DNA from: Shewanella sp. UCD-KL21
GTDB lineage: Bacteria > Pseudomonadota > Gammaproteobacteria > Enterobacterales > Shewanellaceae
Length of the DNA stretch: 64,000 nt
NCBI RefSeq assembly: GCF_001957135.1
Contig: NZ_MPHK01000008.1
Location: 1 to 64,000, forward strand
Direction: 5' to 3'
Shown: positions 1,734-23,596 of the stretch, in pieces
How positions within the stretch are numbered: the stretch's first letter is position 1
How the letters are laid out: each line of letters begins with the position of its first letter
Position numbers and translations under genes: made by a program
The notes under the pieces: generated by a model
Databases searched by the model: none
Told to the model about the DNA's origin: nothing
What the model saw: only the letters and a program-made list of their open reading frames with translations

Positions 1734-2519
1734 CTAGTCAATATTGATAAAAATATTGGCGGTTAGTCGACCTGTATCAGGATTACTGTCAATGTCAGTA
1801 TCAAGGTTTACCAAGGTCGAGTGTAATAGGTTACCAGGGTAAATCACTAGTCTATGCTGTTTGTATTCAATTTGATGATGCTGCTGATAATAGTCATTAC
1901 TTTCAACAAAATACTTGGCAGGCTCAGGTGCTATTTGTTGTAAATAGGGCTCGGCTGCATTGAAATATTGCTGCATATTTTGTTGAGTAATACGTTCAAA
2001 ACCACTGGGTTTATGGTTAAAAAAAGCCGTGGCGCCGTGGGGCTGGTCGTTCAAATATTGCAAAATGGCAAAATAGTAGGGCGCAGGAGTATCAAAATGG
2101 GGGATACGCTGCAAGGTGGTTAAGCTTTCTGGTTGACGGTTTATTAGCGAAAAATAGGTGGCTTGAGGCTTAATGCGTAAATTGGTTGGCACCTTGTACA
2201 CATCATAAATTAGCTGAAATACATGATTAAGCACTTCAATAACATAGTCTTTAGGTAATTTGGCCCGCACACCAGGGTAGTAAGACCCCATATCGAGATT
2301 GAAATCGATTTGGCGAGCACAGGCCTGAAGCTCAGATACATCAGCAGTAAAGTCATCAATCACAATCACCGGCGTTTTTAACTCACCGATATACACCACT
2401 TGTGGTTTGAGGGGCTTTTTGACCAGCACCATCGCATTTAAGGTATTACTGCCAGCTGACTTATGTTTATCTGGCATATGCTTATCTGGTTTAGGTGCTG
2501 CTGATGTTACATCGACCAT
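1734..2519 (-). CDS. DUF6445-like family protein of halogenase clusters (2OG-Fe(II) oxygenase-like)
   Basis: A 261-residue protein. An HFD triad (His141-Phe-Asp143) in RIPHFDTP and a distal His233 in GNLLHSTL follow the HxD...H order of Fe(II)/2-oxoglutarate dioxygenases, with an Arg223 ten residues before the distal His; these are seen. Family assignment to DUF6445 rests on resemblance and on the habit of such proteins to accompany 'tryptophan halogenases' near TonB-dependent receptors. The N-terminal 30 residues are low complexity (PDKHMPDKHK), and Met30 (2432) is an alternative start; neither has a strong ribosome binding site. It is the last gene of the minus-strand set, 45 bp after the halogenase. 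Substrate unknown. Confidence 0.65.
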   Translation of the reverse strand: MVDVTSAAPKPDKHMPDKHKSAGSNTLNAMVLVKKPLKPQVVYIGELKTPVIVIDDFTADVSELQACARQIDFNLDMGSYYPGVRAKLPKDYVIEVLNHVFQLIYDVYKVPTNLRIKPQATYFSLINRQPESLTTLQRIPHFDTPAPYYFAILQYLNDQPHGATAFFNHKPSGFERITQQNMQQYFNAAEPYLQQIAPEPAKYFVESNDYYQQHHQIEYKQHRLVIYPGNLLHSTLVNLDTDIDSNPDTGRLTANIFINID

Positions 2520-2564
2520 AATGTGCGGATCCGTTATCTATAGCTATCAAGCGATTAGTATGAG

Positions 2565-4085
2565 TTAAAGCATTTTTGATTTGCAGTAATGCTGCACAAA
2601 CTCATAATGATCAGGCAAATTAGCCACTTTGTGTTTCACTTTTGCTTTGATATTACCTAAAAAGCTTTCAAGCTCTGCATCTTCCATCATATCCACAATC
2701 GGGTGATATTGTTTCGGCACTAAGCCTTGACCCATCATCACTTGGATCCACGAGCTTTCGCCAAAGAGTTCATTACCATGTTTGTAGACTTTACCTGAAG
2801 CATCAAACATATCGATGCGGTGTTGCAATGACTCAGGCACACTCATACTTTTACAATGACGCCAAAAACGGGTATCGACTCTGTCAGTGACTTTATAATG
2901 CAAGATAATGAAGTCACGAATGTTTTCGGTTTCTGTGCGAGTCTGTTGGTTAAACTCATTGATATCTTCTTCAACAATGCCTTGTGAGGGGAACATTTGC
3001 AGTAAACGTACAATGCCGCGCTGAATTAAATGAATGCTGGTGGATTCTAATGGCTCTAAAAAGCCAGATGAAAGACCGATGGCAACGCAGTTTTTATCCC
3101 AAGTTTTACGGCGACTACCGGTGCGGAACTTTATCACTCGTGGTTCAGTTAATGGCTCACCTTCAATGTTTTCCATTAACGTAGCTTTTGCTTCATCATC
3201 ACTGATGTATTTACTGCAAAAAACAATACCATTGCCGGTACGGCTTTGTAGCGGGATGCGCCACTGCCAGCCCGATTCTCGGGCAATTGAACGAGTATAG
3301 GGAATGGGCTTGCTGGTGGTTTTTGTTTGCACAGCAATGGCGCTATCACAAGGTAACCAATGGCTCCAGTCATCAAAGCCGGCATTAAGGGTTTGCTCGA
3401 TTAATAAGGCCTTAAAACCAGTGCAATCAATAAATAAGTCACCTTCAATCACTTCACCTGACATCAGTGTTAAAGCGCTGATGTGGCCATTTTCATGGTT
3501 CTGCTGCACATCTGATATTTTGCCTTCAATACGCTTAATACCGTGCTGCTCTGCAATAACCCGCAAGAACTTAGCGTATAAGCTGGCATCCATATGATAG
3601 GCATGGTTGTAGTCTTGATTAGGTAACACGGCAAAGCGACCTTCACGAGCCGCTAAATGCTCAGTGCAATAATCACCAATTTCACTGACAATACCGCGCT
3701 GCTGACCTTTAAGCCAAAAATGCTGGAAACCACAAGCCCAGCAATCTTTGCCTAAAAAACCAAATGAGTGAATATAATCCTTGCCGACGTCATGCCAGTT
3801 TTCAAAAGAAATGCCCAGTTTAAACGTGGCGTTGGTGGCTGCCATGACATCTTGTTCTTTGATGCCTAATAAACGATGAAAAATATGTAAGGTAGGGATA
3901 GTGGCTTCACCTACACCAACCGTACCTATTTCATCTGATTCAACTAAAACGACTTCTAAGTTTTTACCTAGTAGTTTTGTTAATGCAGCAGCAGCCATCC
4001 AACCTGCGGTGCCACCGCCAGCGATGACGACTTTTTTGATTGGCTTGTTTGTAGCATTGGCTGTACTCGATGCTTGCTTTTGCAT
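2565..4085 (-). CDS. flavin-dependent tryptophan halogenase family protein (1)
   Basis: A 506-residue member of the PF04820 family, which uses FADH2, O2 and halide to halogenate indole-type substrates. The FAD motif GGGTAGW is at 23-29, the candidate catalytic Lys89 lies in FKLGISFENW, the WxWxIP motif (WQWRIP) is at 273-278, and Glu347 in EPLESTSIH matches the position of the second catalytic residue of PrnA-type enzymes (Lys79/Glu346). All key residues are therefore present. No signal peptide, so cytoplasmic. It lies between the cupin gene (90 bp away) and the DUF6445-like gene (45 bp). The true substrate of the copies that travel with TonB receptors and SapC is not established; free tryptophan should not be assumed. 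Confidence 0.88.
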   Translation of the reverse strand: MQKQASSTANATNKPIKKVVIAGGGTAGWMAAAALTKLLGKNLEVVLVESDEIGTVGVGEATIPTLHIFHRLLGIKEQDVMAATNATFKLGISFENWHDVGKDYIHSFGFLGKDCWACGFQHFWLKGQQRGIVSEIGDYCTEHLAAREGRFAVLPNQDYNHAYHMDASLYAKFLRVIAEQHGIKRIEGKISDVQQNHENGHISALTLMSGEVIEGDLFIDCTGFKALLIEQTLNAGFDDWSHWLPCDSAIAVQTKTTSKPIPYTRSIARESGWQWRIPLQSRTGNGIVFCSKYISDDEAKATLMENIEGEPLTEPRVIKFRTGSRRKTWDKNCVAIGLSSGFLEPLESTSIHLIQRGIVRLLQMFPSQGIVEEDINEFNQQTRTETENIRDFIILHYKVTDRVDTRFWRHCKSMSVPESLQHRIDMFDASGKVYKHGNELFGESSWIQVMMGQGLVPKQYHPIVDMMEDAELESFLGNIKAKVKHKVANLPDHYEFVQHYCKSKML

Positions 4086-4175
4086 AACTGAAATTCCTTA
4101 CATCATTTCACAGTATCGTGATTAACGTTGTTATTCGTATCTTGAATCATCAATGAACAAGGTGTTCACGTGACA

Positions 4176-5189
4176 CTATCGTTTTAGTTTATTAATTAAA
4201 TCAGCTCTTAATTTTCTAGCATTCAATTCATCTAGCGGCTTAGTTTGCATCCCTTGAGCTTCTATTGGGATATGACTCACGTCATCTTCATCATGATCAA
4301 AAACATAATGATCGAACATGGCTTTCCAAGCTTGTCTTTGCGCTTTGGGCAATGAACGAAGGCTTAACATGGCCATTGATAGCGCATTATTAGGTCTGCC
4401 TAGGTAGGCTGGCGTATCTCGCCACCAGTGGGTTATCAATACATTAAAAGCCTCAATACCACTGACTTGATGCCACCACATACTCGGAACATAAAGCACA
4501 TCACCAGGTTCTAGCTCTGCTTTTTTCGCTGCTGCCAAAGCATCTTTATATTTCGGATACTTTTCAAAATCAGGATTATCAAAATCGACCATACTGATTT
4601 CCTGGCCGCCAGGGGCAAATTCCATCGGGCCGATATACAAATTACTCACTTGTGCTGGCGGGAATAGTGTAAAGGTTCGTTTTCCGACAACATTACAAGC
4701 GAGGTTTTGTGGAAAATCAAAATGCGCAGCAATGCGCGATTGATTACCTAACCAAACACTGGTTAACGGTCTAATAGGTTCAATTTTTAAACTGTTTTCA
4801 TCAGCTAAACCCGGAAGAAATTGATTAATTTCAGTTGAGCCCATATAGATACTAGGTGGCAACTTATCGTCTTTATGAATAAATAACTTATCAATCACTT
4901 GATTCAGATTGAGCTGAGCTGCTTGATAATTAAAGCCGTTAACTTGTTCGTTATAAAACACTCTGCCTTTGTGTTTAGGCTCAACGTAGTAAGCCGTAAC
5001 TGGTGTGTTTTTATAGAACGTCAGCAGGTAATCAGCTGCAGTTTTTGCCGAATCTAACCCTGCTTGTACTATAGGCCAATTCAGACAAGCCCCTTTAAAA
5101 ATAATAGGCTCGTCAGTTTGCTCTATCATTGAGGGTATCTCTGATAAAGGGCAATTATCTATTACCTTAACTGACTGAATATGTTCCAT
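4176..5189 (-). CDS. cupin_8 / JmjC-like Fe(II) 2-oxoglutarate oxygenase
   Basis: A 337-residue cupin-like protein. The metal triad is visible as His156 and Asp158 in AAHFDFPQN and His240 in PSMWWHQVSG; LEPGDVLYVPSMWWH is the typical second cupin motif of the FIH/JmjC-like cupin_8 family. These enzymes hydroxylate proteins, peptides or small molecules. It is placed between the SapC gene (68 bp) and halogenase 1 (90 bp) on the same strand, an arrangement repeated in many Proteobacteria with TonB-dependent receptors. A C-terminal acidic/Leu-rich helix region (from about residue 295) is outside the cupin fold. Substrate unknown; a protein or peptide substrate shared with the halogenases is inference. 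Confidence 0.85.
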   Translation of the reverse strand: MEHIQSVKVIDNCPLSEIPSMIEQTDEPIIFKGACLNWPIVQAGLDSAKTAADYLLTFYKNTPVTAYYVEPKHKGRVFYNEQVNGFNYQAAQLNLNQVIDKLFIHKDDKLPPSIYMGSTEINQFLPGLADENSLKIEPIRPLTSVWLGNQSRIAAHFDFPQNLACNVVGKRTFTLFPPAQVSNLYIGPMEFAPGGQEISMVDFDNPDFEKYPKYKDALAAAKKAELEPGDVLYVPSMWWHQVSGIEAFNVLITHWWRDTPAYLGRPNNALSMAMLSLRSLPKAQRQAWKAMFDHYVFDHDEDDVSHIPIEAQGMQTKPLDELNARKLRADLINKLKR

Positions 5190-5257
5190 TACAACGACCT
5201 TGTTTACTGCGTTTCCACTTATACCATTAATTATTTACTTCATTTTTAAGGCAATGT

Positions 5258-5977
5258 TTATTGCGCATTTTTGAAGTTTAATAATTGCCTGATATTAGAA
5301 TGGGATGCCAGTGTCATATAAATTGCGTTGAGATAACCATGTTGATGTAATTCAGCAAGTGTTTCAGCAGGAAGGGCGGCAAGTGTTTCTTCATTGATGG
5401 TATAGAAACCAATCATTTGATGCTTTTCGCCATTATCTAATTCAATATCTAAAGTGAAGGATTCAAGCAACTCAAGCTTGATTAAGGTATCGATAAAGTT
5501 CTTACTATCGATCAATCCATGGTGAATCACTTCTAGCATTTCACCGACTTCATCAAGGTAGGGAGTATTACCACCATATGGAAAAAATAACGGCTCACCT
5601 TTAGCTTCATTGATCCTTGGATGTTTTGGATCTAAATGGATAACACGTTGAATTTGTTCAACACCATCTTCTTGAACCGTTTGCTGACCGATTAAAAAAG
5701 GCTGACGACGGACAGTTAGAGGGATATAGGCAGCCTGCCATTTACCCTCTTGAAGAAATAGGTTTTCTTTATGCTGAAAGCCAAACATTGCAATAGAATA
5801 AAATTGGCCTGTATTGCTGTCTTTTTGAAAAAAGATTGGATAATGAGCTTGTACACTTCTAAATTCGGCCGGAAAAGTCACCGTGTACCAAAGGTTGTCA
5901 CCGTATTTTTCAGAACGTTCGGTGATAATTTTTAAGTCTTTATGATCGACACTATTAAGTAATACTGGTTTGTTCAT
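5258..5977 (-). CDS. SapC family protein
   Basis: A 239-residue protein matching the SapC family, named after an S-layer-associated protein of Campylobacter: an N-terminal NKPVLLNSVDHKDLKI stretch, then LWYTVTFPAEFRSVQAHYPIFF, then YIPLTVRRQPFLIG. There is no signal peptide. SapC genes recur beside tryptophan-halogenase-family and cupin genes in glycan-uptake loci, but the biochemical role is not known. Here it lies between the cupin gene (68 bp) and halogenase 2 (75 bp), all on the minus strand, and is probably co-transcribed with them. Confidence 0.85.
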   Translation of the reverse strand: MNKPVLLNSVDHKDLKIITERSEKYGDNLWYTVTFPAEFRSVQAHYPIFFQKDSNTGQFYSIAMFGFQHKENLFLQEGKWQAAYIPLTVRRQPFLIGQQTVQEDGVEQIQRVIHLDPKHPRINEAKGEPLFFPYGGNTPYLDEVGEMLEVIHHGLIDSKNFIDTLIKLELLESFTLDIELDNGEKHQMIGFYTINEETLAALPAETLAELHQHGYLNAIYMTLASHSNIRQLLNFKNAQ

Positions 5978-6052
5978 GCTGACATCCTAATCAAGTACAG
6001 CTTTAGCTGTGTTATTTTTCTAGTGTTATTGGTGCTTATTATTGTGTTGGAG

Positions 6053-7639
6053 CTATATTTTAGGTAATCCGTACTGGGCTATTTTTGCTAACAACTCACG
6101 GTTGGTCGGTAAAAGCTGTTTTAAACCTTGTGTGCGTTTTATGTTTTCACTAAACAATTGTTGTGCTTTATTTTGTTGTGATGGCTTAACATGACTTGGA
6201 TTCATGGTTTGAAATTCCATGCCATAAAGCACAAATTGAAAGCTTGCCGCTGGAAATAGCACATCGGTATATTGAATATCATGCTTACTGGGCGTTTGAG
6301 TTCGCCATAATTCAATTTGCTGTTGCAGTGAATCAGGAATCGTTGATGATTCACGATGGTCGTGCCAATAGTCACTATCAGTTCTTTTACTGAGCACATA
6401 ATGCAGTTTTAAAAAGCTTATGATTTGTTGCCAATGCTGGCTAAATCTTTGGTTCACTCGAGCAGAAACAATATCCATGACGTCTCTGTTTGCTGGCAGT
6501 TGCTGCGCTAAGGTATTGGCGCTCCACTCAACTAAGGCTAACGCAGATGCTTCAAGCGGCTCTATAAAGCCTGATGCCATCCCAATGGCCATACAATTAT
6601 TCTTCCAACATACTTGGCGATGCCCTGGAGCGATAGCAAGCTTTCTGATTTCGAGGTTATCCACATCAATATTGACAGTGGGTTTTAGGTACTCAATCAA
6701 TTGTTGCTCAGCTTGACTTTGGTCAGTATGGCTAGATGAGTAAACATGACCAACTCCACGCCTTGTAGGCAAGCCAATATCCCAAATCCAACCATTTGTT
6801 TGTGCGGTTGAATGAGTGCAAGAAGCAATTTCTGTATCAGCTTGTGGGTAAGGGACTTGAACAGCTAAAGCTGAGTCATTAAACAACACTGATTTTTGAC
6901 AAATAAATGGCACGTCTAACTGCTCACCCAGCAATAACGATTTAACTCCGGTGCAATCAACAAAAAAGTCAGCTTTTAATTCACCCGAAAACTTAGTCGA
7001 TAAATGGCTAATATCGCCATCTTCAGTTTTGTGTATTCCTGTGACGTGGTCTTGGATATGGGTAACACCGAGCTTATTTGTGCAATGCTGTTGTAATAAC
7101 TGGCTGAACTTACCTGCGTTAAGGTGATATCCATAATTATTTTGAAATTGATACTCACCAGTAGTGATTTGCTTTGGCGCTAAACTGAATTCACTTAATT
7201 GATTTTGTTGGCCTACGGCATCAGCAAAGCTCACTTGCTCTCTGTGAGGCAACCAGAATGGACAAAGATCTAAGTCATTAGTCCCAATTGGTAAGCTAAA
7301 CGGGTGGAGATAGTTATCAGAAGAGCAATCTTGTTTGGCTTTTGGATTATGAGTCCAATTAAAAAAACGCGAGCCTTGTTTGAAACTTGCATCGCAGCTC
7401 AGTAAAAATTCAGTTTCACTAATGCCGATATTTTGTAACGTGGTGCGCATTGAAGGCCATGTACCTTCGCCGACACCAATGGTGGGCACATCAGGTGATT
7501 CTATTAAGGTTATATTGAGCTTAGGAGAGGGCGATAGTTTACCATTATCAGCGTTGTGCTGTGCAGCCAAAATACCTGCAGTTAACCAACCTGCAGTGCC
7601 GCCGCCAACAATAATAATATTTCGTATCGCTTGTGCCAT
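6053..7639 (-). CDS. flavin-dependent tryptophan halogenase family protein (2)
   Basis: A 528-residue PF04820 member, distinct from the first. The FAD motif GGGTAGW is at 12-18, the candidate catalytic Lys87 lies in FKQGSRFFNW, and Glu363 in EPLEASALALVEW matches the second catalytic residue. The WxWxIP motif is altered to WIWDIGLP (284-291): a residue is inserted before Leu-Pro and the usual Ser-Thr-Ser after the catalytic Glu is Ala-Ser-Ala. This suggests a different substrate pocket from halogenase 1. It is the first gene after the TonB receptor, but 263 bp and two terminator-like hairpins separate them, so it may have its own promoter or depend on read-through. Confidence 0.87.
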   Translation of the reverse strand: MAQAIRNIIIVGGGTAGWLTAGILAAQHNADNGKLSPSPKLNITLIESPDVPTIGVGEGTWPSMRTTLQNIGISETEFLLSCDASFKQGSRFFNWTHNPKAKQDCSSDNYLHPFSLPIGTNDLDLCPFWLPHREQVSFADAVGQQNQLSEFSLAPKQITTGEYQFQNNYGYHLNAGKFSQLLQQHCTNKLGVTHIQDHVTGIHKTEDGDISHLSTKFSGELKADFFVDCTGVKSLLLGEQLDVPFICQKSVLFNDSALAVQVPYPQADTEIASCTHSTAQTNGWIWDIGLPTRRGVGHVYSSSHTDQSQAEQQLIEYLKPTVNIDVDNLEIRKLAIAPGHRQVCWKNNCMAIGMASGFIEPLEASALALVEWSANTLAQQLPANRDVMDIVSARVNQRFSQHWQQIISFLKLHYVLSKRTDSDYWHDHRESSTIPDSLQQQIELWRTQTPSKHDIQYTDVLFPAASFQFVLYGMEFQTMNPSHVKPSQQNKAQQLFSENIKRTQGLKQLLPTNRELLAKIAQYGLPKI

Positions 7640-7794: not shown

Positions 7795-7866
7795 AAAAAA
7801 GGTGCAACGTCCTTGTTGCAAACGGATGTAGCTTAATAAAAAAGAGGTGACCAAAACGATCACCTC
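7795..7866 (-). terminator. two tandem intrinsic terminators after the TonB receptor gene
   Basis: Read on the minus strand: stem GAGGTGA/TCACCTC (7844-7866) followed by a run of six T (7838-7843), then a second stem TGCAAC/GTTGCA (7803-7820) followed by CC and six or more T (7795-7800). Both lie just downstream of the receptor stop codon at 7903 and before halogenase 2. Confidence 0.75.
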
Positions 7867-11051: not shown

Positions 11052-11067
11052 ATGTAAGCGCTTACAT
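11052..11067. promoter_or_regulatory. perfect LacI-family operator palindrome
   Basis: ATGTAAGCGCTTACAT is a perfect 16-bp palindrome with the central CG of LacI-family operators, 125 bp upstream of the receptor start. Near-identical sites occur at 11238-11253 and 15856-15871, so one regulator (most simply the LacI-family protein encoded at 11695-12702) probably controls receptor and glycosidase/transporter genes together. Confidence 0.8.
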
Positions 11068-11237: not shown

Positions 11238-11253
11238 GTGATAGCGCTTACAT
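11238..11253. promoter_or_regulatory. second LacI-family operator upstream of the TonB receptor
   Basis: GTGATAGCGCTTACAT keeps the right half-site GCTTACAT exactly and the left half with three changes from the perfect palindrome at 11052. Centre-to-centre spacing is 186 bp, so looping between the two is possible. The remaining intergenic sequence to the regulator gene (11254-11620) is AT-rich and I see no gene in it. Confidence 0.6.
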
Positions 11254-11694: not shown

Positions 11695-12702
11695 TTACTG
11701 CTTAAAAGGCTCTGTGGCTGAGTCTCTAACAATCAATTGAGGTGTAAAGGTATTTTCGACTAATGGTTTGGGGTCGTTATAAACATGTTTAAGCACCCAA
11801 AATGCTGCCATTTTACCCATCTCATGGATTGGGTTATTAACCGTGGTGAGCTTTGGCGAGATATACTGTGGGAAAGGAATATTATCGTAACCAACAAATG
11901 AAAGTTGTTCAGGAATTTTCATACCTTTTTCAAGACAAACTGCAATTGCCCCTGATGCCATTTGATCATTGGCACACACCACTGCTGTAAACGGCTTATT
12001 TGCACTAAAAAAAGCATTCATGGCTTCGCTGCCACCCAGTTCTTTATAGTTTCCTTCATAAAAAAGCTGTTGATCAAATTCAATGTCAAATTCTGCTAAA
12101 GCGCGCTTATGACCGAGTAAACGATCTTGGGAGTCAAGCTTAAACAGTGGGCCAGAAATGTAGGCTAGATCTTTATGGCCATGAGTTAGAATATGTTTAG
12201 TTGCGAGGTAACCACCAAGTTCATTATCAAGATAAACACAGCGTTCACTTATTTCATCAATATAACGGTTGATAAGAACAATAGGCGTATTACCTTGGTG
12301 GAGTTTTATTAAATATTCATCGTCCACAGCTTCAACATCAAGAATTAACGCATCACAACCACGGCTAATTAAAAAATCAACACCGTCTCTTTCTTGGTTT
12401 TCATCACTGTGGCCTGCAGCAATAATGACATGTTTATTACCAGCTCGTAGAGCGGTTTCAATTTCGGTCATCATAGGGCCGTAATAGGGGCCATCTAGTT
12501 GGGAAACTAATACCCCAATACTGTTTGAGCGGTTAGATGCTAATGACTGCGCGATAGAATTAGGTCGATAACCCAATTGCTCCATTGCGCTTAATACTTT
12601 CTGTTTGGTCTTGTCGCTGACTTTGGTGTTGTTATTCATCACTCGCGACACAGTCGCAAGTGAAACACCCGCCAAGACAGATACATCATATATTGTTGCC
12701 AT
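11695..12702 (-). CDS. LacI-family transcriptional regulator of the beta-glucan locus
   Basis: A 335-residue repressor-type protein. The LacI helix-turn-helix is at residues 3-22 (IYDVSVLAGVSLATVSRVMN) with the hinge helix YRPNSIAQSLASNRSNSIG, followed by a periplasmic-binding-protein-like sensor domain with NDQMASGAIAVCLEKG and FVGYDNIPFPQYISPKLTTV. Transcribed with the GPH permease and GH1 genes upstream on the same strand. Operators with the LacI-type central CG lie in front of the receptor gene and between GH1 and the FHS transporter. In Shewanella a LacI-family BglR controls beta-glucoside use; that this is the same regulator is inference. The inducer is likely a gluco-oligosaccharide or glucose derivative. 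Confidence 0.88.
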   Translation of the reverse strand: MATIYDVSVLAGVSLATVSRVMNNNTKVSDKTKQKVLSAMEQLGYRPNSIAQSLASNRSNSIGVLVSQLDGPYYGPMMTEIETALRAGNKHVIIAAGHSDENQERDGVDFLISRGCDALILDVEAVDDEYLIKLHQGNTPIVLINRYIDEISERCVYLDNELGGYLATKHILTHGHKDLAYISGPLFKLDSQDRLLGHKRALAEFDIEFDQQLFYEGNYKELGGSEAMNAFFSANKPFTAVVCANDQMASGAIAVCLEKGMKIPEQLSFVGYDNIPFPQYISPKLTTVNNPIHEMGKMAAFWVLKHVYNDPKPLVENTFTPQLIVRDSATEPFKQ

Positions 12703-12962: not shown

Positions 12963-14282
12963 CTATTTAGTTATGGCTAAATGTACTCTTTCAACTTGTT
13001 GATTATCAAGAGTGTACCAGCGCATAACCACAGCCACGATAATTGAGCCAATAGCAGGGTATAAGGTAAATGAGATTAAAATACCCTGTTTAGTGGTTTC
13101 GGTTAATTCAACATCAGCTTGATAGCCATACATTGCCAGTAACCAACCCGCAGCAGCGCCGCCAATGGCCACCCCTAATTTGATGAAGAATATCACCGAT
13201 GAATAAATCATCCCGGTAATTCTTACCCCAGTTTTGAATTGACCATAATCAACCGCATCAGCCATTTTGGCCCACAGTAGTGGGGTCCCCATATTAAAGG
13301 TAAAGCCCCATAGGATATAAAGCGCAAAGGCGAGTTCCACTTGCTCACTTGAGACAAAATACGCGGCGACACACAAAATGGCGGCAATGATTTGAATGGT
13401 GATATAGGCTTTTACTTTACACACTCTTTTCGCCAGTGGTTGCGCCAAAATACAGCCGAAAATATTACCAATCATGCCTAAGGTAATAAACCAGGTGATC
13501 ATGTCAGGTAAGTTGAGGTAATACTTAACGTAATAAATAGCTAAACTGGTTTTTAAAACCATGCCAGATAATAAGCAAATTGCCGCCACAGAAAGCACGC
13601 GCCATTGGTCATTTTTTAACAGGTTTTTGAAATCTGCTTTAAACGTAGAATTTTGATCTTGCGGAGGATGTAAGCGCTCTTTAGTGCCGACAAAGCACAG
13701 TAAGAACATGATCACCCCTAAAAAGCTCATGGCGGCAATGGTCAGCTGATAACCCTTGGCTTGATCGCCTTGGCCGAAAAACTCCACTAATGGTAGCGTC
13801 AATCCTGACACCATTAAGCCGCCTAGCATGGCAAAAACAAAACGATAAGATTGTACTGACACACGCTCTTTAGGATCGGCAGTTAACACTCCGCCTAAAG
13901 CGCAGTAGGGGATATTAATGGCGGTGTAGACCATCATTAACGCAGTGTAAGTGATGAAGGCATAGATCATTTTACCTTCTTCAGCTAAATCAGGGGTGGT
14001 AAACGCTAGCACACTGATTAAGCCAAAGGGCAGTGCAAACCATAATAGATAAGGTCTAAATTTGCCCCAGCGGGTATGGGTTCTGTCGGTTAAGGCGCCC
14101 ATCAAAGGGTCAGTAATCGCATCGATAACCCTAACCGCAAGGAACATGGTGCCGACAAAGGCCGGTGAAATGCCAAAAATATCAGTATAGAAAAAAGTTA
14201 AAAATAGCATTACTGTTTGAAACACAATATTGCTGGCGGTATCACCTAATCCATAGGCTATTTTTTCTTTAACGCTAATCAT
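12963..14282 (-). CDS. GPH-family sugar:cation symporter (MelB-like)
   Basis: A 439-residue inner-membrane transporter with about 12 membrane segments. The N-terminal KIAYGLGDTASNIVFQTVMLFLTFFYTDIFG and AVRVIDAITDPLMGALTDRTHTRWGKFRPYLLW blocks are diagnostic of the glycoside-pentoside-hexuronide symporter family, including the Asp residues of the DPxxG motif that bind the coupling cation. Transcribed with GH1 (104 bp upstream), whose product would hydrolyse the imported sugar, so a beta-glucoside or short laminari-oligosaccharide is the likely cargo. The start ATG at 14282 gives the family's usual N-terminus. Confidence 0.9.
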   Translation of the reverse strand: MISVKEKIAYGLGDTASNIVFQTVMLFLTFFYTDIFGISPAFVGTMFLAVRVIDAITDPLMGALTDRTHTRWGKFRPYLLWFALPFGLISVLAFTTPDLAEEGKMIYAFITYTALMMVYTAINIPYCALGGVLTADPKERVSVQSYRFVFAMLGGLMVSGLTLPLVEFFGQGDQAKGYQLTIAAMSFLGVIMFLLCFVGTKERLHPPQDQNSTFKADFKNLLKNDQWRVLSVAAICLLSGMVLKTSLAIYYVKYYLNLPDMITWFITLGMIGNIFGCILAQPLAKRVCKVKAYITIQIIAAILCVAAYFVSSEQVELAFALYILWGFTFNMGTPLLWAKMADAVDYGQFKTGVRITGMIYSSVIFFIKLGVAIGGAAAGWLLAMYGYQADVELTETTKQGILISFTLYPAIGSIIVAVVMRWYTLDNQQVERVHLAITK

Positions 14283-14386: not shown

Positions 14387-15727
14387 TTATTGACGTTGAC
14401 TGATAAAGTCTCGATAAGCTAAGCCACTTCTTTTAATGGTGCGCTGCTGAGTTTGATAATCAACATACACGATTCCAAAGCGTTTTAAATAGCCTTCTGC
14501 CCACTCAAAATTATCCATTAAACTCCAAGCGAAATAACCGACGACATTAACGCCTTGGTTGATAGCATCATTCACCGCATTTAAATGAGCTTGGTAATAC
14601 TCAAGGCGATCTAAATCATCAACTTGGTTATTAACTAGTTTATCGTCCATGGCAGCGCCGTTTTCGGTGATGTACACAGGCGGTAATGTATAGGTGTTAT
14701 TTAAACTCGTAAGCAGATCAGTAAATGCACTTGGGTAAATCTCCCAACCGATATCGGTTTTAGGGGCATCTTTCATATCAACTTGAAAAAACTCATTGTT
14801 ATCGCAGGCGCTATAGACTGCGCGGGTATAAAAGTTAATCCCTAAAAAGTCCAGTGGCTGGTTAATGATCTCCATGTCACCGGCTTGAATGTCAGGTTTA
14901 TCGGCCTCAGCAAAATCATGAATAATTGCAGGGTATTCGCCATCCATTATTGGCTTCATATACCACTGGTTAAAATAATCATCGGCGATTTGAGCGGCTT
15001 TTATATCGGCATCTGTTGCCGTTAATGGATAGCAAGGGGTGAAATTAAGCACGATACCGTTTAACGCATTAGGGCAATTTTTTTGAATGACCTTTAAAGC
15101 CAAGCCATGGGCCAGTAATAAATGGTGGGCTGATTGACGGCCAAATGCTTTGCTGGCAAGCCCCGGCGCATGTATGCCTACTTCATAACCAAGATACGAG
15201 CTACAAAAAGGCTCGTTTAAGGTGGCATAAGAATAGACTTTATCACCTAACGCTTGGGTGATTTTATCAGCGTAATCAGCAAATAAATACGCGGTTTGTC
15301 GGTTGAGCCAGCCACCTTGATCTTCAATATGCTGTGGTAAGTCCCAATGATACAAGGTGGCGTAGACCTTTATACCGCGGCTATTTAGCTCATCAATCAA
15401 ATTGACATAAAAGTCGACACCTTGTTGATTGAGGCTACCATCTTGCTTAATGACTCGCGGCCAAGAAATTGATAATCGATAGGCATCAACGCCTAAAGAT
15501 TCGATTAATTGCACATCATCTTTCCATAATGCCACATGCTCACAAGCTTGCTTTCCGTCTGAACCATCACGAATTTTACCGGCCGTTGCACAGAAGGTAT
15601 CCCATATACATGGGAGGCGGCTATCAGCTGCCCCTTCAATTTGAAAAGAGGCGGTTGCCACCCCAAAAGTGAACTCTTTGGTGTGCATTTTAGAACTTGA
15701 TGGTAAAGATATTTTCATATTTTTCAT
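14387..15727 (-). CDS. GH1 beta-glucosidase
   Basis: A 446-residue glycoside hydrolase family 1 enzyme. The acid/base Glu172 is in TLNEPF, the nucleophile Glu355 in YITENG, and FGVATASFQIEGA near the N-terminus and YFAWSLMDNFEWAEGY near the C-terminus complete the TIM-barrel signature. No signal peptide, so it acts in the cytoplasm on imported beta-glucosides. The first ATG (15727) gives about a dozen residues before the conserved FTFGVATASFQ; later Met residues at 4 and 14 are alternatives. It heads the minus-strand GH1-GPH-LacI group and is divergent from the FHS transporter, with a LacI-type operator between. Confidence 0.93.
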   Translation of the reverse strand: MKNMKISLPSSSKMHTKEFTFGVATASFQIEGAADSRLPCIWDTFCATAGKIRDGSDGKQACEHVALWKDDVQLIESLGVDAYRLSISWPRVIKQDGSLNQQGVDFYVNLIDELNSRGIKVYATLYHWDLPQHIEDQGGWLNRQTAYLFADYADKITQALGDKVYSYATLNEPFCSSYLGYEVGIHAPGLASKAFGRQSAHHLLLAHGLALKVIQKNCPNALNGIVLNFTPCYPLTATDADIKAAQIADDYFNQWYMKPIMDGEYPAIIHDFAEADKPDIQAGDMEIINQPLDFLGINFYTRAVYSACDNNEFFQVDMKDAPKTDIGWEIYPSAFTDLLTSLNNTYTLPPVYITENGAAMDDKLVNNQVDDLDRLEYYQAHLNAVNDAINQGVNVVGYFAWSLMDNFEWAEGYLKRFGIVYVDYQTQQRTIKRSGLAYRDFISQRQ

Positions 15728-15855: not shown

Positions 15856-15871
15856 ATGAAAGCGCTTACAT
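15856..15871. promoter_or_regulatory. LacI-family operator in the divergent GH1/FHS promoter region
   Basis: ATGAAAGCGCTTACAT differs by one base from the perfect palindrome at 11052. It lies 129 bp upstream of the GH1 start and 131 bp upstream of the transporter start. A weaker similar motif, GTGAAAGCGTTAAG, follows at 15937-15950. Confidence 0.75.
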
Positions 15872-16001: not shown

Positions 16002-17288
16002 ATGGCGAGTGCACCTTCAAATGGGGTTGCTGAACCAATCAATAGTGATATTGGCAGTGTTCATCAAACTGGAAATTTTCGTTTTGCGCTGGTGGCATTA
16101 ACGTCATTATTTTTTATGTGGGGCTTTTTAACTTGCCTCAATGATATTCTCATTCCTTATCTGAAAGATATGTTCGAGCTTAACTACACCCAAGCCATGT
16201 TGGTGCAGTTTTGTTTCTTCGGCGCCTATTTTATTGTCTCAATTCCCGCAGGGCATCTGGTGGGTAAAATTGGTTATCAAAAAGGCATTGTTACCGGCTT
16301 AACGATTGCTTGTATCGGCTGTTTAATGTTTTACCCTTCAGCAAGTTATGCATCTTACTGGATGTTTTTAACTGCCTTTTTCGTGTTAGCGTCAGGCATT
16401 ACCATTTTACAGGTTGCAGCCAACCCTTATGTGAGCGCTTTAGGCCCTGCTGAAACCGCCTCATCACGTTTAACCATGACTCAAGCCTTTAACTCGCTTG
16501 GTACTACAGTGGCGCCATTTTTTGGTAGTTGGTTAATTTTAAGTAGCTTAACTCACAATAGCGATCCAGCCGTTGAAGCAGTGCATCATGCCAGCACCGT
16601 TCAGGTGCCTTACTTGATGTTAGCGGGCGCCTTATGTGTGTTAGCAGTTATTTTTATGATTTTAAAATTGCCGGTTTTAGGTATTAAACCCGTCAACACC
16701 TCAGGGACAAGTAGCGGCAGTGCGTGGAAGTATCCTCATTTAGTTTTGGGAGCTGTGGGTATTTTTGTTTATGTCGGCGCAGAAGTGGGTATTGGCAGCT
16801 TTTTAATTAACTTTTTAACTCAGCCAGATATTGGCGGTTTTACTGAAGCTGAAGCGGCTAACTATATTGCTTACTATTTTGGCGGCGCTATGGTGGGACG
16901 CTTTATTGGCGCACTGGTAATGCAAAAAGTCTCTGCCGGTAAAGTGCTGGCCTTTAATGCCACTTGCGCCGTGTTATTGGTGGCCGTGGCCATGTTTGCA
17001 GAAGGCACCACGGCAATGTGGGCCTTGTTATTGGTAGGTTTATGTAACTCGATTATGTTCCCAACCATCTTTAGCTTAGCGCTACAAGATTTAAAGCAAT
17101 ATACCAGCCAAGGCTCAGGGGTGTTGTGTCTTGCTATTGTCGGCGGCGCGATAGTGCCATTACTGCAGGGCATTATGGCTGACAGCTTAGGTATTCAATT
17201 AGCATTTGCATTGCCGTTAATTTGTTATGCATTTATTGCTTATTACGGCTTAGTGGGCAGCAAGGCTAAACGACCACAAAGCGTTTGA
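16002..17288 (+). CDS. FHS-family glucose/galactose-type MFS transporter
   Basis: A 428-residue, 12-segment major facilitator of the fucose-galactose-glucose:H+ symporter (FHS) family. [19 protein letters not shown] in the first membrane segment and [21 protein letters not shown] are typical of FucP/GluP/NagP transporters. It starts at ATG 16002 with GAGGAAAGG just upstream. It leads a plus-strand set with GH3 (74 bp) and GH16, so the cargo is most simply the glucose released by those enzymes. GluP is the usual Shewanella name for such a glucose carrier, but specificity cannot be read from sequence. Confidence 0.88.
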
Positions 17289-17362
17289 TTTTAGAACTGC
17301 CTAATTTGTATTAAAAAACTTATATAAAACTTACATAAAAAACGATTTTAAAAGGCGTGATT

Positions 17363-20020
17363 ATGAGAACAGTAAACCCAATGAATACATTTAAGCGATT
17401 AACGCTACCAGCCCAAGTATTGGCGGTGTTGGTTGGTTTAAGTGCGTGTGGTCAAGATGAAGCCAAACCCGTAACGACAGAGTCTAACAGCGAAGTTACT
17501 AGCGCAGCGGAAACTGTGGCACAAGTTTCTATCACAAAAGAAACTTCGGCAACCAATATTGATATTTGGCCAACACTTGCTATTCCATTTGCTAAAGATG
17601 TTGCCCTTGAATCGCGTATCGATAAGCTGATGGCGACCATGACCTTAGAGCAAAAAGTCGCGCAAATGATCCAGCCTGAAATTCGCGATATTACTGTTGA
17701 AGATATGCGTAAATACGGTTTCGGCTCTTATTTAAACGGCGGCGGTGGTTACCCAAATAATGATAAACATGCCACGCCAGCAGATTGGATTGAGCTGGCA
17801 GAATCTATGTACCAAGCGTCGATGGATGACAGTCTCGATGGCATTGCCATTCCGACAATGTGGGGCACAGATGCGGTCCATGGCCACAACAATGTCATTG
17901 GCGCGACTTTATTCCCGCACAATATTGGTTTAGGCGCAGCCAATAACCCTGAGTTAATTAAGCAAATTGCCGCTATTACCGCTAAAGAAGTGATGGTAAC
18001 GGGTATTGATTGGGTATTTGCCCCGACTGTGGCGGTTGTCAGGGATGACCGCTGGGGCCGAACTTATGAAGGTTATTCTGAAGACCCACAAATCGTAAAA
18101 TCATACTCCCATTCAATTGTTGAAGGCCTGCAGGGCGCCGTTGGCGATGACTTCTTATCAGATCAACATGTTATTTCAACGGTGAAGCATTTCCTTGGCG
18201 ATGGCGGCACAGAAAAAGGCATTGACCAAGGCGATAACCTAGCTACTGAGCAAGCGTTATTTGACATTCATGCCCAAGGCTATGTCGGCGGCTTAACTGC
18301 TGGTGCACAAACGGTTATGGCATCATTTAATAGTTGGCATGGCACCAAAATCCATGGCGATAAATATCTATTAAACGATGTATTAAAAGACAAAATGGGC
18401 TTTGATGGTTTTGTGGTTGGTGACTGGAATGGTCACGGACAAGTGGCAGGTTGTACCAATGAGTCTTGCGCGCAAGCGGTGAATGCAGGCTTAGATGTGT
18501 ACATGGTACCAACCAGTGCTTGGAAGTCTTTGTATGAAAATACCATTGCCCAAGTCAAAGACGGCGTGATTGCCCAGTCACGTATCGATGATGCGGTGCG
18601 CCGTATTTTACGGGTAAAAATCCGCGCCGGTTTATTTGAAAAACCAAGCCCTGCGAATCGTGCCATTTCAGGTAAAACTGAGTTGATTGGCGCAAAAGCG
18701 CATCGCGACGTGGCCAGACAGGCAGTGCGTGAATCCTTAGTGTTGTTGAAAAACAATAATAACATTTTACCTATCGCGCCTAGTGCCAAAATCTTAGTGG
18801 CAGGTGATGCGGCAGATAACATCGGTAAGCAATCTGGTGGCTGGAGTATTACTTGGCAGGGCACAGATAACTTAAATGAAGACTTTCCCGGTGCCACTTC
18901 CATTTATGCTGGTATTGAGCAAACGGTTAAAGCTGCAGGCGGTCAAACTTGGTTAAGTGTTGATGGCACATTTGAGGCGGCGAATAAGCCCGATGTAGCG
19001 ATTGTGGTATTTGGTGAAGAGCCTTATGCCGAAGGCAATGGTGATATTGATAACCTTGAATATCAGCGCGGCGATAAACGTGATTTAGCCTTACTAAAGT
19101 CGCTTAAAGCCCAAGGTATTCCTGTGGTAGCTGTGTTTATCAGTGGCCGCCCAATGTGGGTCAATGCTGAGTTAAATGCATCCGATGCGTTTGTAGCTGC
19201 TTGGCTTCCTGGTACTGAAGGTGACGGCGTGGCTCAAGTGTTATTGAGCCAAGCCAACGGCGAGGTTAATGAAAACTTTGCTGGTAAATTATCTTTCTCT
19301 TGGCCGACTCGCCCGCAGCAAACCAAAGTGAATGTGTTTGATAAAGACTACGCGCCTTTATTTAGCTATGGCTATGGTTTGCGCTATGGCGCTGACATGA
19401 AAGCTGAGGTGCCGAGTAATGTGGTTGCTAACACCTTATCTGAAGATAACTTTGCTACCGAGGATAAGCTTGAAGCATTACCATTATTTGAACGTGCGGT
19501 TAAAGCGCCTTGGCGCTTGATGATGGGCACAGAAACATCAATGGACACAGTGAGTAGCAGTATTCAGTCTAACGATGTGGTGACCCTGCGCACCTTTGAT
19601 AAGCAAGTTCAAGAAGATGCTCGCTTAATTAGCTTTAATGGCTCTGGTTTAGGCTTTGTGGGCTTAATTAGTAACTTCCCGCGGGATTTACGCGCTTACT
19701 CGAATAGCAATGCCGCGCTGAGCGTAATGATTAAAACCGCAAGCAAACTTGAGCAGCCATTATTACTGGGTATGGCATGTGATAGAGATTGCCGTGCAGA
19801 TGTAGATATTACCGAGCAGCTTAATAGCGTCGCCATTGATACTTGGCAAACCATCAGTGTTGATTTGCAATGTTTTAAAGAGCAGCAACTGGACTTTGGT
19901 AAAATAAATACACCGTTTTACCTGTCAACTATAGGTGCAGCAGAAGTGAGTTTTAGTGATTTAGTTATAGTGCCAAATGGCGCTGAACAAGCCACTATTT
20001 CATGTGCCACTAACGAATAG
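17363..20020 (+). CDS. GH3 exo-beta-glucosidase/glucanase lipoprotein
   Basis: An 885-residue protein from ATG 17363 (AAAAGG at 17350-17355 favours it over the GTG at 17357). Lipoprotein signal peptide with lipobox LSAC, Cys29. GH3 N-terminal barrel follows with the nucleophile Asp354 in GFVVGDWNGHGQ and the KHFLGDGG motif, then the GH3 C-terminal alpha/beta domain (to about residue 680). A C-terminal beta-sandwich of about 160 residues (KAPWRLMM... to FSDLVIVP) resembles the ExoP-type domain of marine GH3 exo-1,3/1,4-beta-glucanases. It would release glucose from beta-glucan oligosaccharides in the periplasm or at the outer membrane. Second gene of the FHS-GH3-GH16 set. Confidence 0.92.
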   Translation: MRTVNPMNTFKRLTLPAQVLAVLVGLSACGQDEAKPVTTESNSEVTSAAETVAQVSITKETSATNIDIWPTLAIPFAKDVALESRIDKLMATMTLEQKVAQMIQPEIRDITVEDMRKYGFGSYLNGGGGYPNNDKHATPADWIELAESMYQASMDDSLDGIAIPTMWGTDAVHGHNNVIGATLFPHNIGLGAANNPELIKQIAAITAKEVMVTGIDWVFAPTVAVVRDDRWGRTYEGYSEDPQIVKSYSHSIVEGLQGAVGDDFLSDQHVISTVKHFLGDGGTEKGIDQGDNLATEQALFDIHAQGYVGGLTAGAQTVMASFNSWHGTKIHGDKYLLNDVLKDKMGFDGFVVGDWNGHGQVAGCTNESCAQAVNAGLDVYMVPTSAWKSLYENTIAQVKDGVIAQSRIDDAVRRILRVKIRAGLFEKPSPANRAISGKTELIGAKAHRDVARQAVRESLVLLKNNNNILPIAPSAKILVAGDAADNIGKQSGGWSITWQGTDNLNEDFPGATSIYAGIEQTVKAAGGQTWLSVDGTFEAANKPDVAIVVFGEEPYAEGNGDIDNLEYQRGDKRDLALLKSLKAQGIPVVAVFISGRPMWVNAELNASDAFVAAWLPGTEGDGVAQVLLSQANGEVNENFAGKLSFSWPTRPQQTKVNVFDKDYAPLFSYGYGLRYGADMKAEVPSNVVANTLSEDNFATEDKLEALPLFERAVKAPWRLMMGTETSMDTVSSSIQSNDVVTLRTFDKQVQEDARLISFNGSGLGFVGLISNFPRDLRAYSNSNAALSVMIKTASKLEQPLLLGMACDRDCRADVDITEQLNSVAIDTWQTISVDLQCFKEQQLDFGKINTPFYLSTIGAAEVSFSDLVIVPNGAEQATISCATNE

Positions 20021-20101: not shown

Positions 20102-20194
20102 CATGTTAATCCACCAATGACGTTGAGCTTACAATTAAGTTTGTAGGGCATTTTGCTGGCATTTTTTAGATATTTTGCGATTTGGGGATCAAGA

Positions 20195-22357
20195 ATGTTC
20201 AATAGAAAAATACCGTTAAATCTGACATCAAACCAGGCTTTTTCAGCTGCGAAAGTGATTAGTGCTGCGAGTTTAACTGCGCTGCTGCTAATAGGCTGCG
20301 GCTCAGAGAGTGAGACTGAAACTGAGCCTGAAGTTGAACAAGCGCCAGTAGACTCTGACTCTGATGCAGGCTCTAATTCAGATACTGATTCAGACACGGG
20401 TTCAGGGCAAGAAAACGCAAGCTGGTCATTGGTATGGAGTGATGAATTTGATGGCGCTGAGATTGATGCCACTAAATGGAATTTAGCCCATAACTGTTAT
20501 GGCGGCGGCAACCAAGAATTACAATGTTATACCCAGCGCCCTGATAACAGCCAAGTGGTTGATGGTAAGTTAGTGATTACCGCTTTACGGGAGGACTTTA
20601 ATGGCCCAGCGCTAGCATTGGGCGATCCTAATTACGATGCCAACGATACTTCAAAACAGCAGCCTTACACTTCGGCGCGGTTAGATTCGACCCATAAAGG
20701 CGATTGGAAATATGGCCGCTTTGAAATCAAAGCCAAAATGCCACAAGGTCAGGGCACTTGGCCGGCCATTTGGATGTTGCCCACTGACTGGGTTTATGGT
20801 CCTTGGGCAGGCTCTGGCGAAATCGATATTATGGAAGCGGTTAATCTGAAAGTGATCACCAATGGCGATGAGTCGCAGACACCTGAAAGCCGGATTCATG
20901 GCACTTTGCATTATGGTAAAGCCTGGCCAGGCAATGTCTATTCCGGCGCTGAGTACAGTTTGCCACAAGGCGCAAACCCTGCTGATGATTTTCATGTCTA
21001 TGCCCTTGAATGGGAGCAAGATGAAATTCGCTGGTATGTGGATGGTGTGCATTATGCTACTCAGCGCTCAACGGCTTGGTACAGTCAATACACAGATGCT
21101 GATGGGTCATTACAACAAGCCCCTGAAGATGCACCTTACAATCAAGCATTTCATATGATCCTCAACTTTGCCGTAGGCGGTACTTGGGCGGGTAATGTCA
21201 ACAACAGTGGGGTGGATGAGTCGGTCTTTCCACAAACCATGGAAGTAGATTATGTTCGCGTGTATGAATGCAGCGTCGCGCCAACAACAGGTAGTGGTTG
21301 TGCCACTATTGATGAAGCTGCAGAAGTGGTCGAAGGCCATCAGCCGCCAGCGATCACGACCCCCAGCACTGATATTGGCGCAGGGCCAGAATTTATCATG
21401 TTTGACGATGCACTAGCCCAAGGGTTAGCGCTTGATAGCTATAACCCCGATGGCAGTATTACCTTGCAGACGCTGACAGTCGCAGGTCGCGGTGAGGTGC
21501 TGCAAATGGATAAAGCCGGCGCGACGGGTAATGCTTATTTCTCTTACCCTCCCACAGCAGATTTGTCTCACTGGGCCAATAATGGCTATTTAGTTTTTGA
21601 TATTAACCTGTTATCTATCGACGACAATGTCGAGCTGCTGGTTAAAATTGACAGTGGTTGGCCAAATGTCAGTGATATTAACGTCACACTGCCAGAGCTT
21701 AATACTTGGACTGAAGTCAAAATATCTATCGCAGCATTAGTCGCCAGTGGCAATCGATTCTCGCCCGGCAGCGTGGCTAACTTAGCTGCAGTAGTGAACC
21801 CATTTGTGATTGAAGCGCTAGGTGACATCAGCCTGCAAATTGATAATGTGCGCTATGAATATCAACTTACAGAAGTTGATGAACTGGTTATTTATGATGA
21901 TGAAGTAAAAGCGCCATATAGCTTGGGGCATTATGCTGCATCGGGCGCGGTTGATATCACTGAGGTTGAGGCTGGTGGTGATTATGGCACTGTGACTCAA
22001 TTTAGTTTTAATACCGATGAAGCCGTGGTGTATTACCAAAGCACAGGGTTAGCGCAAGATGTTAGCCAATTTAGCTTTGTTGAATTTGATCTCAATGTGC
22101 TGACAGATCCACGAAGTCAGCGTGAGTTTAATATCAAGGTCGATTGTGGTCATCCCTGTAGCTCAGGTGACTTTGCCATTACTACGCCCGATATCGCCAC
22201 TTGGACCCATTATAAGTTAGCGCTTGCAGACCTTGTTAGCCATGCAGGCTCAAGTTTAGATTTAACCCAAGTTGATACCCCATTAGTGATTTTTCCGGCT
22301 TGGGGCAATCAAAATGGGGTGGTTATGCAAGTGGATAATGTGCAGCTAACTAAATAA
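20195..22357 (+). CDS. GH16 endo-1,3-beta-glucanase (laminarinase) lipoprotein
   Basis: A 720-residue protein from ATG 20195, with GGGGATC eight bases upstream. Lipobox LIGC, Cys35, so lipid-anchored. A Ser/Asp/Glu-rich linker (residues 39-74) precedes the GH16 jelly-roll (about 77-350) with the catalytic motif EIDIME (nucleophile Glu209, Asp211, acid/base Glu214) and laminarinase-type GTWPAIWMLP. The C-terminus holds two related beta-sandwich domains (about 390-550 and 560-720), each ending in a LQIDNVRY / MQVDNVQL motif, resembling ExoP-C-like carbohydrate-binding modules. It would cut laminarin at the cell surface to feed the TonB receptor. Confidence 0.92.
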   Translation: MFNRKIPLNLTSNQAFSAAKVISAASLTALLLIGCGSESETETEPEVEQAPVDSDSDAGSNSDTDSDTGSGQENASWSLVWSDEFDGAEIDATKWNLAHNCYGGGNQELQCYTQRPDNSQVVDGKLVITALREDFNGPALALGDPNYDANDTSKQQPYTSARLDSTHKGDWKYGRFEIKAKMPQGQGTWPAIWMLPTDWVYGPWAGSGEIDIMEAVNLKVITNGDESQTPESRIHGTLHYGKAWPGNVYSGAEYSLPQGANPADDFHVYALEWEQDEIRWYVDGVHYATQRSTAWYSQYTDADGSLQQAPEDAPYNQAFHMILNFAVGGTWAGNVNNSGVDESVFPQTMEVDYVRVYECSVAPTTGSGCATIDEAAEVVEGHQPPAITTPSTDIGAGPEFIMFDDALAQGLALDSYNPDGSITLQTLTVAGRGEVLQMDKAGATGNAYFSYPPTADLSHWANNGYLVFDINLLSIDDNVELLVKIDSGWPNVSDINVTLPELNTWTEVKISIAALVASGNRFSPGSVANLAAVVNPFVIEALGDISLQIDNVRYEYQLTEVDELVIYDDEVKAPYSLGHYAASGAVDITEVEAGGDYGTVTQFSFNTDEAVVYYQSTGLAQDVSQFSFVEFDLNVLTDPRSQREFNIKVDCGHPCSSGDFAITTPDIATWTHYKLALADLVSHAGSSLDLTQVDTPLVIFPAWGNQNGVVMQVDNVQLTK

Positions 22358-23469: not shown

Positions 23470-23596
23470 CTATATAAACGAGTATTCGCAAAAGCGTCTA
23501 ACTTTAAACTGGTAGCCTTTTATTAGCTCAATAATAGCTATTGCTACAAGCTCATGTTGGTGAATAACAGATTCTAACGATATGGAGAGAGTTACT

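Follow-up and report, generated by a model that had tools for sequence, protein, structure and literature searches.

In the known tryptophan halogenases of the PrnA/RebH/PyrH type (groups A and B), free tryptophan is held by the Trp4 motifs (PMC8269204). The Trp4-less group C brings together BrvH, Xcc4156 and MibH, the last of which has a peptide tryptophan as its target (PMC8269204). BrvH brominates free indole at C3, not tryptophan, and the change of its Lys83 to Ala abolishes activity (PMC5945002). The native substrates of BrvH and of three Xanthomonas halogenases are stated to be unknown, and the same text describes 2pyx as an unnamed halogenase from the Joint Center for Structural Genomics, called unpublished (PMC7336383). 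On a larger substrate, the flavoenzyme QhpG dihydroxylates tryptophan within a protein (PMC7876137). Here we describe a five-gene cassette, HalB-SapC-Cup8-HalA-DUF6445 in order of transcription, found in a 64,000-nucleotide stretch of the marine bacterium Shewanella sp. UCD-KL21 (assembly GCF_001957135.1, contig NZ_MPHK01000008.1, positions 1 to 64,000 of the forward strand; hereafter the window). The cassette lies directly downstream, in the direction of transcription, of a gene for a TonB-dependent receptor (TBDR) of the TIGR01782 or Xanthomonas-Caulobacter type, whose probable cargo is an algal sugar. The feature is real and recurrent, and its tie to a receptor class is clear. A gene set that tracks the same receptor class suggests a chemical finishing of the receptor or of something tied to it, and we put at about one in three the probability that the five genes form an oxidative maturation cassette which is dedicated to the receptor and does its work ahead of export.

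The five open reading frames (ORFs) span positions 1734-7639 on the minus strand, each uninterrupted from start to stop, and the Pfam scores of their products are far above the cut-offs (for SapC, 241 bits against 28.9). ORFs, strand and families all agree with the first-pass annotation, made from the letters alone, which had recognised five same-strand genes including two halogenase-family proteins and SapC. Its claim that both halogenases retain their catalytic Lys and Glu is borne out by the alignment, in which HalA (K89, E344) and HalB keep the GxGxxG motif, the Lys and the Glu expected of PF04820. It had also called two of the proteins Fe(II)/2-oxoglutarate-type, and the residues agree: the HxD...H triad is invariant in 77/77 aligned rows of Cup8 and 27/27 of DUF6445. 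In DUF6445, H141, D143, H233 and R251, all invariant across these 27 rows, are the inferred metal and 2-oxoglutarate ligands. Among the receptor and the five cassette proteins, a signal peptide is evident by eye solely in the receptor.

Among solved chains, HalA ranks Xcc4156 (PDB 6y1w) first at 682 bits, followed by 9luq and, in third place, BrvH (6frl) at 513 bits. HalB ranks 2pyx first, matching it over the full length at 823 bits, with 9ltb and 9lu2 next; we take the source of 2pyx to be Shewanella frigidimarina. Judged by its closest solved relative, HalA is of the Xcc4156/BrvH type (group C). It shares the Lys/Glu/WxWxIP set with these two enzymes, its own version (WQWRIP) being a match and that of HalB (WIWDIG) not an exact one, and none of the three carries the Trp4 motif. 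Likewise, the gene for BrvH is adjoined by a second halogenase gene, as in the cassette (PMC5945002). With the Trp4 patterns of 17 and 9 positions taken from PMC8269204, the best partial matches are 5/17 and 4/9 positions in HalA and 5/17 and 3/9 in HalB, so that the motif is absent from both. It is also absent from all 70 halogenase rows of the genome draw and all 148 of the named loci described below, where at most 7/17 and 5/9 positions agree. The missing motif sets HalA and HalB apart from the PrnA/RebH/PyrH type; free tryptophan is therefore an unlikely substrate and a peptide-sized one is possible, as judged from their sequences. The action of MibH on a peptide tryptophan fits such a substrate by analogy. 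MibH differs in that its substrate is a lanthipeptide, whereas no precursor of a ribosomally synthesized and post-translationally modified peptide is found here in the gap between the TBDR and HalB genes, to which the search was confined and which holds stops in all three forward frames.

Cup8 has FIH and JMJD5 as its nearest solved relatives. Both are protein hydroxylases, and this kinship is counted as a point for receptor maturation. Cup8, with its HxD...H triad, matches FIH at 3.6e-18, an alignment of just 114 residues. SapC yields a confident predicted model (pLDDT 95.4), for which Foldseek gives no match in the PDB at E 0.001, a missing match not amounting to a new fold. When the candidates from Foldseek are aligned with VIA-align, Z reaches at most 2.1 over 59 residues, and at the sequence level nothing in the PDB matches SapC at E 1.

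The link to the receptor is already apparent within the genome itself. Its 4.6 Mb hold five Trp_halogenase genes and nine TBDRs above the TIGR01782 cut-off, and all five halogenase genes sit in four of these nine receptor loci, on the same strand and downstream, the first of each locus being some 60 to 260 bases behind the TBDR. This association exceeds chance. All three SapC genes and the sole Cupin_8 gene are also inside halogenase-TBDR loci; a second, weaker DUF6445 match is found on another contig. The sugar genes of the four loci differ: GH1, GH3 and GH16 in the first, a galactokinase and a sodium:solute symporter in the second, a GH20 hexosaminidase in the third, and three GH13 alpha-amylase-family proteins in the fourth. 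The constant partner of the halogenases is thus the receptor and not the sugar, which makes a sugar an unlikely substrate for the cassette.

The same link recurs elsewhere. Among 200 genomes drawn from the phylum, with limits of E 1e-20 for halogenases and E 1e-85 for TIGR01782, at most seven halogenase and four TIGR01782 candidates were scored per genome, so that the counts for both are lower bounds. Trp_halogenase is present in at least 17 of the 200 genomes (63 genes listed) and TIGR01782 in at least 22, with 14 of the 17 halogenase genomes falling among the 22. A TIGR01782-type TBDR shares the fetched region (20 kb or less) with 56 of the 63 listed halogenase genes. Taken from the receptor's side, a halogenase lies at most 6 kb away for 41 of 87 TBDRs, and the nearest one is on the same strand in 31 of these 41. 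SapC is found more widely, in 72/200 genomes against 17 with a halogenase at the stricter limit. This spread, together with SapC and halogenase genes situated away from TBDRs (L151 and L132, below), would fit a cassette that modifies some other cytosolic or exported protein, or RNA, and whose closeness to the TBDR merely reflects a need under the same condition. The closeness of 56 of the 63 halogenase genes to a TBDR of this type, and the lock of halogenase lineages to TBDR clades, count against this explanation, which is unlikely.

Receptor maturation also agrees with a second collection, the best 80 of 500 confirmed loci, obtained by a contig scan with HalA alignment and thus biased toward near HalA relatives. 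Counted over the whole locus and on either strand, HalA is present in all 80 (by selection), SapC in 74, TBDR and Cup8 in 73 each, HalB in 67 and DUF6445 in 26. The prevailing order is TBDR-HalB-SapC-Cup8-HalA(-DUF6445) on one strand, with intergenic gaps inside the cassette that are short or overlapping in relatives. Exceptions include loci that lack HalB, such as the alphaproteobacterial one, two loci in which DUF6445 precedes HalB, and two in which HalB is encoded on the opposite strand. The nearest of the 80 is from Shewanella olleyana (L157), with a HalA 90 percent identical, and the others include Rheinheimera, Colwellia, Microbulbifer, Alteromonas, Lysobacter, Massilia and an alphaproteobacterial metagenome-assembled genome. 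Among the flank proteins, of which 104 were scanned out of 110 taken from some of the loci, the most frequent kinds are MFS, GH3, LacI and further sugar-related families. HalA relatives also occur on plasmid records (H1-H15), for instance in Catenovulum adriaticum at 60 percent identity.

Several related arrangements stand apart from this pattern. At L132:8389-19800, HalA and DUF6445 occur without such a TBDR, beside a protein of at least 2,715 residues with DUF11 repeats and weak RTX-type matches, and at L117:9112-13992 a HalB-SapC-DUF6445 set without such a TBDR is followed by a FecR-family gene. SapC without a halogenase is found at L151:7944-19899, between an HlyD-domain protein and an RTX-repeat protein of at least 3,009 residues, and at L048:112-2208 a SapC gene adjoins a Mu-like phage portal gene. 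The neighbours of standalone SapC genes are mixed, with no clear common partner among the 10 proteins and part of the further sets considered, of 110 listed.

The receptor link becomes most specific on the trees, built with FastTree and including several weak branches. From 87 TBDRs an 82-row tree was made by leaving out one that fell between the distance limits and four others (two distant, one short, and one far-side second TBDR). The halogenase label changes 9 times on it, against about 27 in shuffles, none of 500 of which is as low. Three clades hold 37 of the 39 halogenase-linked TBDRs, along with 11 of the 43 unlabelled ones. The halogenase tree has 70 rows (L142 left out), 59 of them with a partner TBDR in clades I-III, and shows 6 changes by TBDR clade over these 59 rows versus 51 by genome over all 70. 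In the eight genomes that have halogenases beside at least two TBDR clades, 46 of 47 halogenases have a closer relative beside a TBDR of the same clade in a different genome than beside a TBDR of another clade in their own genome; the lone exception, a degenerate row, gives no hit at all. By these sequence comparisons, the halogenase lineages follow the TBDR clade and not the host genome. The first-pass annotation had held that the set travels with TBDRs. This is supported, and the tie is tighter than the letters alone could reveal, through the fixed gene order of the named loci, the 56 of 63 halogenases of the draw and the lineages locked to TBDR clades.

The companion of HalA tends to differ by clade, being HalB mainly in clade I, a GEGSTP-type halogenase in clade II (4 rows), and, in clade III (6 rows), a degenerate halogenase-like protein devoid of the Lys. 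All four members of the GEGSTP subfamily lie beside clade II TBDRs (L077:399-1985, L079:8235-9734, L119:8331-9890 and L131:17589-19082). The Lys-less halogenase-like proteins lie beside clade III TBDRs and adjoin intact halogenases (L084:9094-10581, L096:12228-13724, L113:6207-7844, L123:6072-7559, L128:5884-7617 and L145:7690-9150), a position in which they look like inactive partner subunits.

These degenerate partners bear on a further explanation, by which the flavin proteins would be monooxygenases, or oxygen- or halide-dependent redox components, acting on the receptor or its partner and no longer halogenating in vivo. The WIWDIG motif of HalB in place of WxWxIP points the same way, as does the precedent of QhpG. 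LodB and GoxB are also flavoenzymes that modify tryptophan in proteins. In an NCBIfam scan of HalB, QhpG is the best match, but a weak one, and the matches to QhpG, LodB and GoxB reach 22-42 bits, far short of equivalog cut-offs of 240-400; no quinone-cofactor enzyme is recognised among the genes scanned here. HalA and HalB keep their Lys and Glu, and BrvH halogenates, its Lys83-Ala form being inactive (PMC5945002), and this further explanation is quite improbable. For receptor maturation QhpG remains, by analogy, a precedent for the proposed chemistry on a protein tryptophan.

The nearest described loci can be compared on the same terms. We take the TonB-dependent sugar-uptake loci nix of Xanthomonas and mal of Caulobacter to carry halogenase, SapC and Pass1 genes. 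The genome of Caulobacter vibrioides, included as a control, gives matches for PF04820, SapC, Cupin_8 and TIGR01782. Term searches of the accessible text yield no mention of halogenase, SapC, Pass1 or cupin in PMC1790865 (Blanvillain 2007) and no match in PMC3400609. For Xcc4156 and BrvH, a term search of the accessible text, with figures outside its scope, finds TonB, cupin and SapC unmentioned; the HalA studied here differs in belonging to a fixed cassette locked to a TBDR clade. Among the matches listed in a search of titles and abstract openings in the open-access literature, no description of the halogenase-SapC-TBDR set was found.

A maturation cassette acting on its receptor could leave a mark in the receptor sequence, and this is where the reading meets its main difficulty. 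The strongest marks are R120, in the plug, and D394, each present in 36/40 halogenase-linked and 11/43 other TBDRs; with Asp or Glu accepted beside the Arg, the counts are 36/39 and 11/43. Both look like clade markers on the tree, find no support in a test of independent pairs, and were set aside as targets. The best candidate is W504, which is invariant in 84/84 TBDRs of the full-cassette set and which the receptor model puts at the end of a strand running into a long, presumably extracellular loop. For HalB, the best residue state scores 4.0 versus 0 pairs and is not aromatic, and the best aromatic one scores 3.1 versus 0.1. N677 goes with DUF6445 in raw counts (26/30 versus 5/54).

A number of points weigh against receptor maturation. 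The halogenase-linked receptors have no single TBDR residue that all of them share. W504 itself is missing from 11 of the 12 halogenase-linked receptors of clade II as well as from L037, L082 and L121, and it occurs in TBDRs of clades I, II and III that have no halogenase (L081; L041; L089 twice). HalB undergoes at least 10 changes on the 84-TBDR tree, and none of the 1,941 residue states scanned clearly follows it. N677 was rejected as a partner of DUF6445, being not significant under independent pairs (2.8 versus 1.0, p 0.625) and outscored by other residues. An operon inherited as one block would equally yield matched lineages, with no physical contact needed. Seven of the 63 halogenase genes of the draw have no such TBDR in the fetched region. 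The matches to QhpG, LodB and GoxB are little or no stronger than those to other flavoproteins. Finally, BrvH, a relative of HalA, acts at C3 of free indole, a position blocked in tryptophan (PMC5945002). Since the paired tests rest on about nine independent pairs their power is low, and for a simple model of one enzyme and one residue they are negative at that power. The modification of a receptor-linked or surface protein, which the first-pass annotation had put forward as a plausible idea, stays no more than plausible after two negative target-residue tests, and because of these our confidence in receptor maturation is kept low.

The absence of clear target-residue tracking would fit a cassette whose product is a small molecule, made while the cells grow on glucan by halogenating and hydroxylating indole, some other aromatic compound or a peptide, and serving as a signal, an antimicrobial or a ligand that the TBDR takes up or senses. 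BrvH and Xcc4156 do act in vitro on free indole-type compounds. Such a product would still require the same compound in each of the differing sugar contexts, and a split of halogenase lineages by TBDR clade would be needless for a common metabolite. Genes for biosynthesis or for carrier proteins are also missing from the six labelled genes and from the 25 commonest of the 74 flank families. A small-molecule product is accordingly doubtful, and receptor maturation is ranked as the most likely reading, ahead of this product, of another protein or RNA target, and of a non-halogenating redox role. Its observed basis consists of the gene order, the catalytic residues, the TBDR linkage, the lineage lock, the differing sugar genes, the operators, and the lack of a free-tryptophan motif.

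The genes around the receptor and their likely control sites are collected with the cassette in Table 1.

Table 1. Cassette, receptor, sugar genes and candidate control sites in the window.
Feature	Position	Strand	Basis
DUF6445, predicted Fe(II)/2-oxoglutarate oxygenase	1734..2519	-	Pfam 221 bits; H141-x-D143, H233, R251
HalA, flavin-dependent halogenase, Xcc4156/BrvH type	2565..4085	-	Pfam Trp_halogenase 642 bits; K89, E344, WQWRIP
Cup8, cupin_8/JmjC oxygenase, FIH and JMJD5 kin	4176..5189	-	Pfam Cupin_8 219 bits; H156-x-D158, H240
SapC family protein	5258..5977	-	Pfam SapC (PF07277) 241 bits; confident model
HalB, second flavin halogenase, WIWDIG subfamily	6053..7639	-	Pfam Trp_halogenase 371 bits; nearest solved chain 2pyx
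Second hairpin, then T run; candidate attenuator	7803..7820	-	structure scan
Terminator-like hairpin between TBDR and HalB, T run after	7844..7866	-	structure scan
TonB-dependent receptor (TBDR), TIGR01782	7903..10926	-	NCBIfam 617 bits, cut-off 310; model pLDDT 85.9
LacI-type operator TGTAAGCGCTTACA	11053..11066	.	palindrome about 130 bases 5' of TBDR start
Weaker operator copy, 2 mismatches	11239..11252	.	pattern scan
LacI/GalR-type regulator, likely operator binder	11695..12702	-	profile matches
GPH-family sugar:cation symporter	12963..14282	-	profile matches
GH1 beta-glucosidase	14387..15727	-	TIGR03356 above cut-off
Second LacI-type operator TGAAAGCGCTTACA, one change from TGTAAGCGCTTACA	15857..15870	.	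between GH1 and divergent MFS/GH3/GH16 genes
MFS transporter	16002..17288	+	profile match
GH3 glycosidase	17357..20020	+	first 881 of 887 residues scanned
GH16 protein, candidate beta-1,3-glucanase	20153..22357	+	profile match
ROK-family protein, candidate sugar kinase	23582..24502	+	profile match

The locus holds the set expected for a beta-glucan of the laminarin type, namely a TBDR with GH16, GH3, GH1, GPH, MFS, ROK and LacI genes and operators. At up to 2 mismatches, TGTAAGCGCTTACA has 3 matches in the window against 0.27 expected. The form TGWAAGCGCTTWCA is found at 3 places in the whole genome, 2 of them in the window locus; the third (contig C12, L237, 1500-14500) is 5' of an MFS_2 sugar-transporter gene followed by a GH94 gene. 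On the opposite side of this third copy is an arylsulfotransferase gene. In relatives, TGWAANCGNTTWCA is present at most 600 bases 5' of the TBDR in 31/69 loci, and 50 of its 76 sites fall inside the pre-TBDR intervals, which make up 43,470 of 1,418,848 bases. The sugar genes and the operator sites, in the window and in relatives, make a beta-glucan function with LacI-type control likely. The first-pass annotation had spoken of a glucan receptor; this stands by virtue of the locus context, from which all of its backing comes: GH1, GH3 and GH16, the GPH transporter, the ROK kinase and the LacI-type operators.

Between the receptor and HalB, the hairpin at 7844-7866 has a comparable one in all four relatives printed (L157, L158, L160 and L162, by eye), and that at 7803-7820 a matching one in L157, L158 and L160 (by eye). 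The former probably lets just part of the transcripts reach the cassette. Taken alone, the terminator scan is no evidence because it gives 11 terminator-like sites against 12.5 expected from shuffles, and the promoter scan is likewise not above shuffles. The length of this gap is highly variable among relatives. In the window it also holds an exact palindrome, CTTACAAGTGTTTGTAAG, at 7738-7755, near-identical in L157 and possibly the cassette's own operator. It was dropped in that role: it has a single exact copy, and matches allowing up to 3 mismatches are no more frequent than chance predicts.

From these elements a course of receptor maturation can be proposed. In the presence of beta-glucan the LacI-type regulator, acting as a repressor, would leave its operator, and the TBDR would be made in quantity. 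With attenuation at the hairpin, a smaller share of the transcripts would extend beyond it into HalB-SapC-Cup8-HalA-DUF6445. Side chains may then be halogenated in the cytosol by the two flavin enzymes, or hydroxylated as by QhpG, and the two 2-oxoglutarate oxygenases may hydroxylate side chains as well. The substrate would be the cognate TBDR before it folds, or else a protein that binds to it, and SapC would serve as a scaffold or as a substrate-presenting subunit. The receptor would then be exported after its modification.

The lineage lock makes the cognate receptor the first suspect for the native substrate of halogenases of the BrvH and Xanthomonas type. In its broadest form, the proposal is that sugar TBDRs of a widespread class depend for their maturation on dedicated halogenases and 2-oxoglutarate oxygenases, with every lineage of halogenase specific to one receptor clade. 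This would give halogenated and hydroxylated outer-membrane receptors and explain what enzymes of the BrvH and Xcc4156 types do in nature, a role long missing, an outcome we hold to be unlikely at this breadth. If the receptor is indeed modified, sugar uptake in Proteobacteria of sea and soil would be subject to a new level of control, and the cassette would be a source of enzymes with proteins as their substrates.

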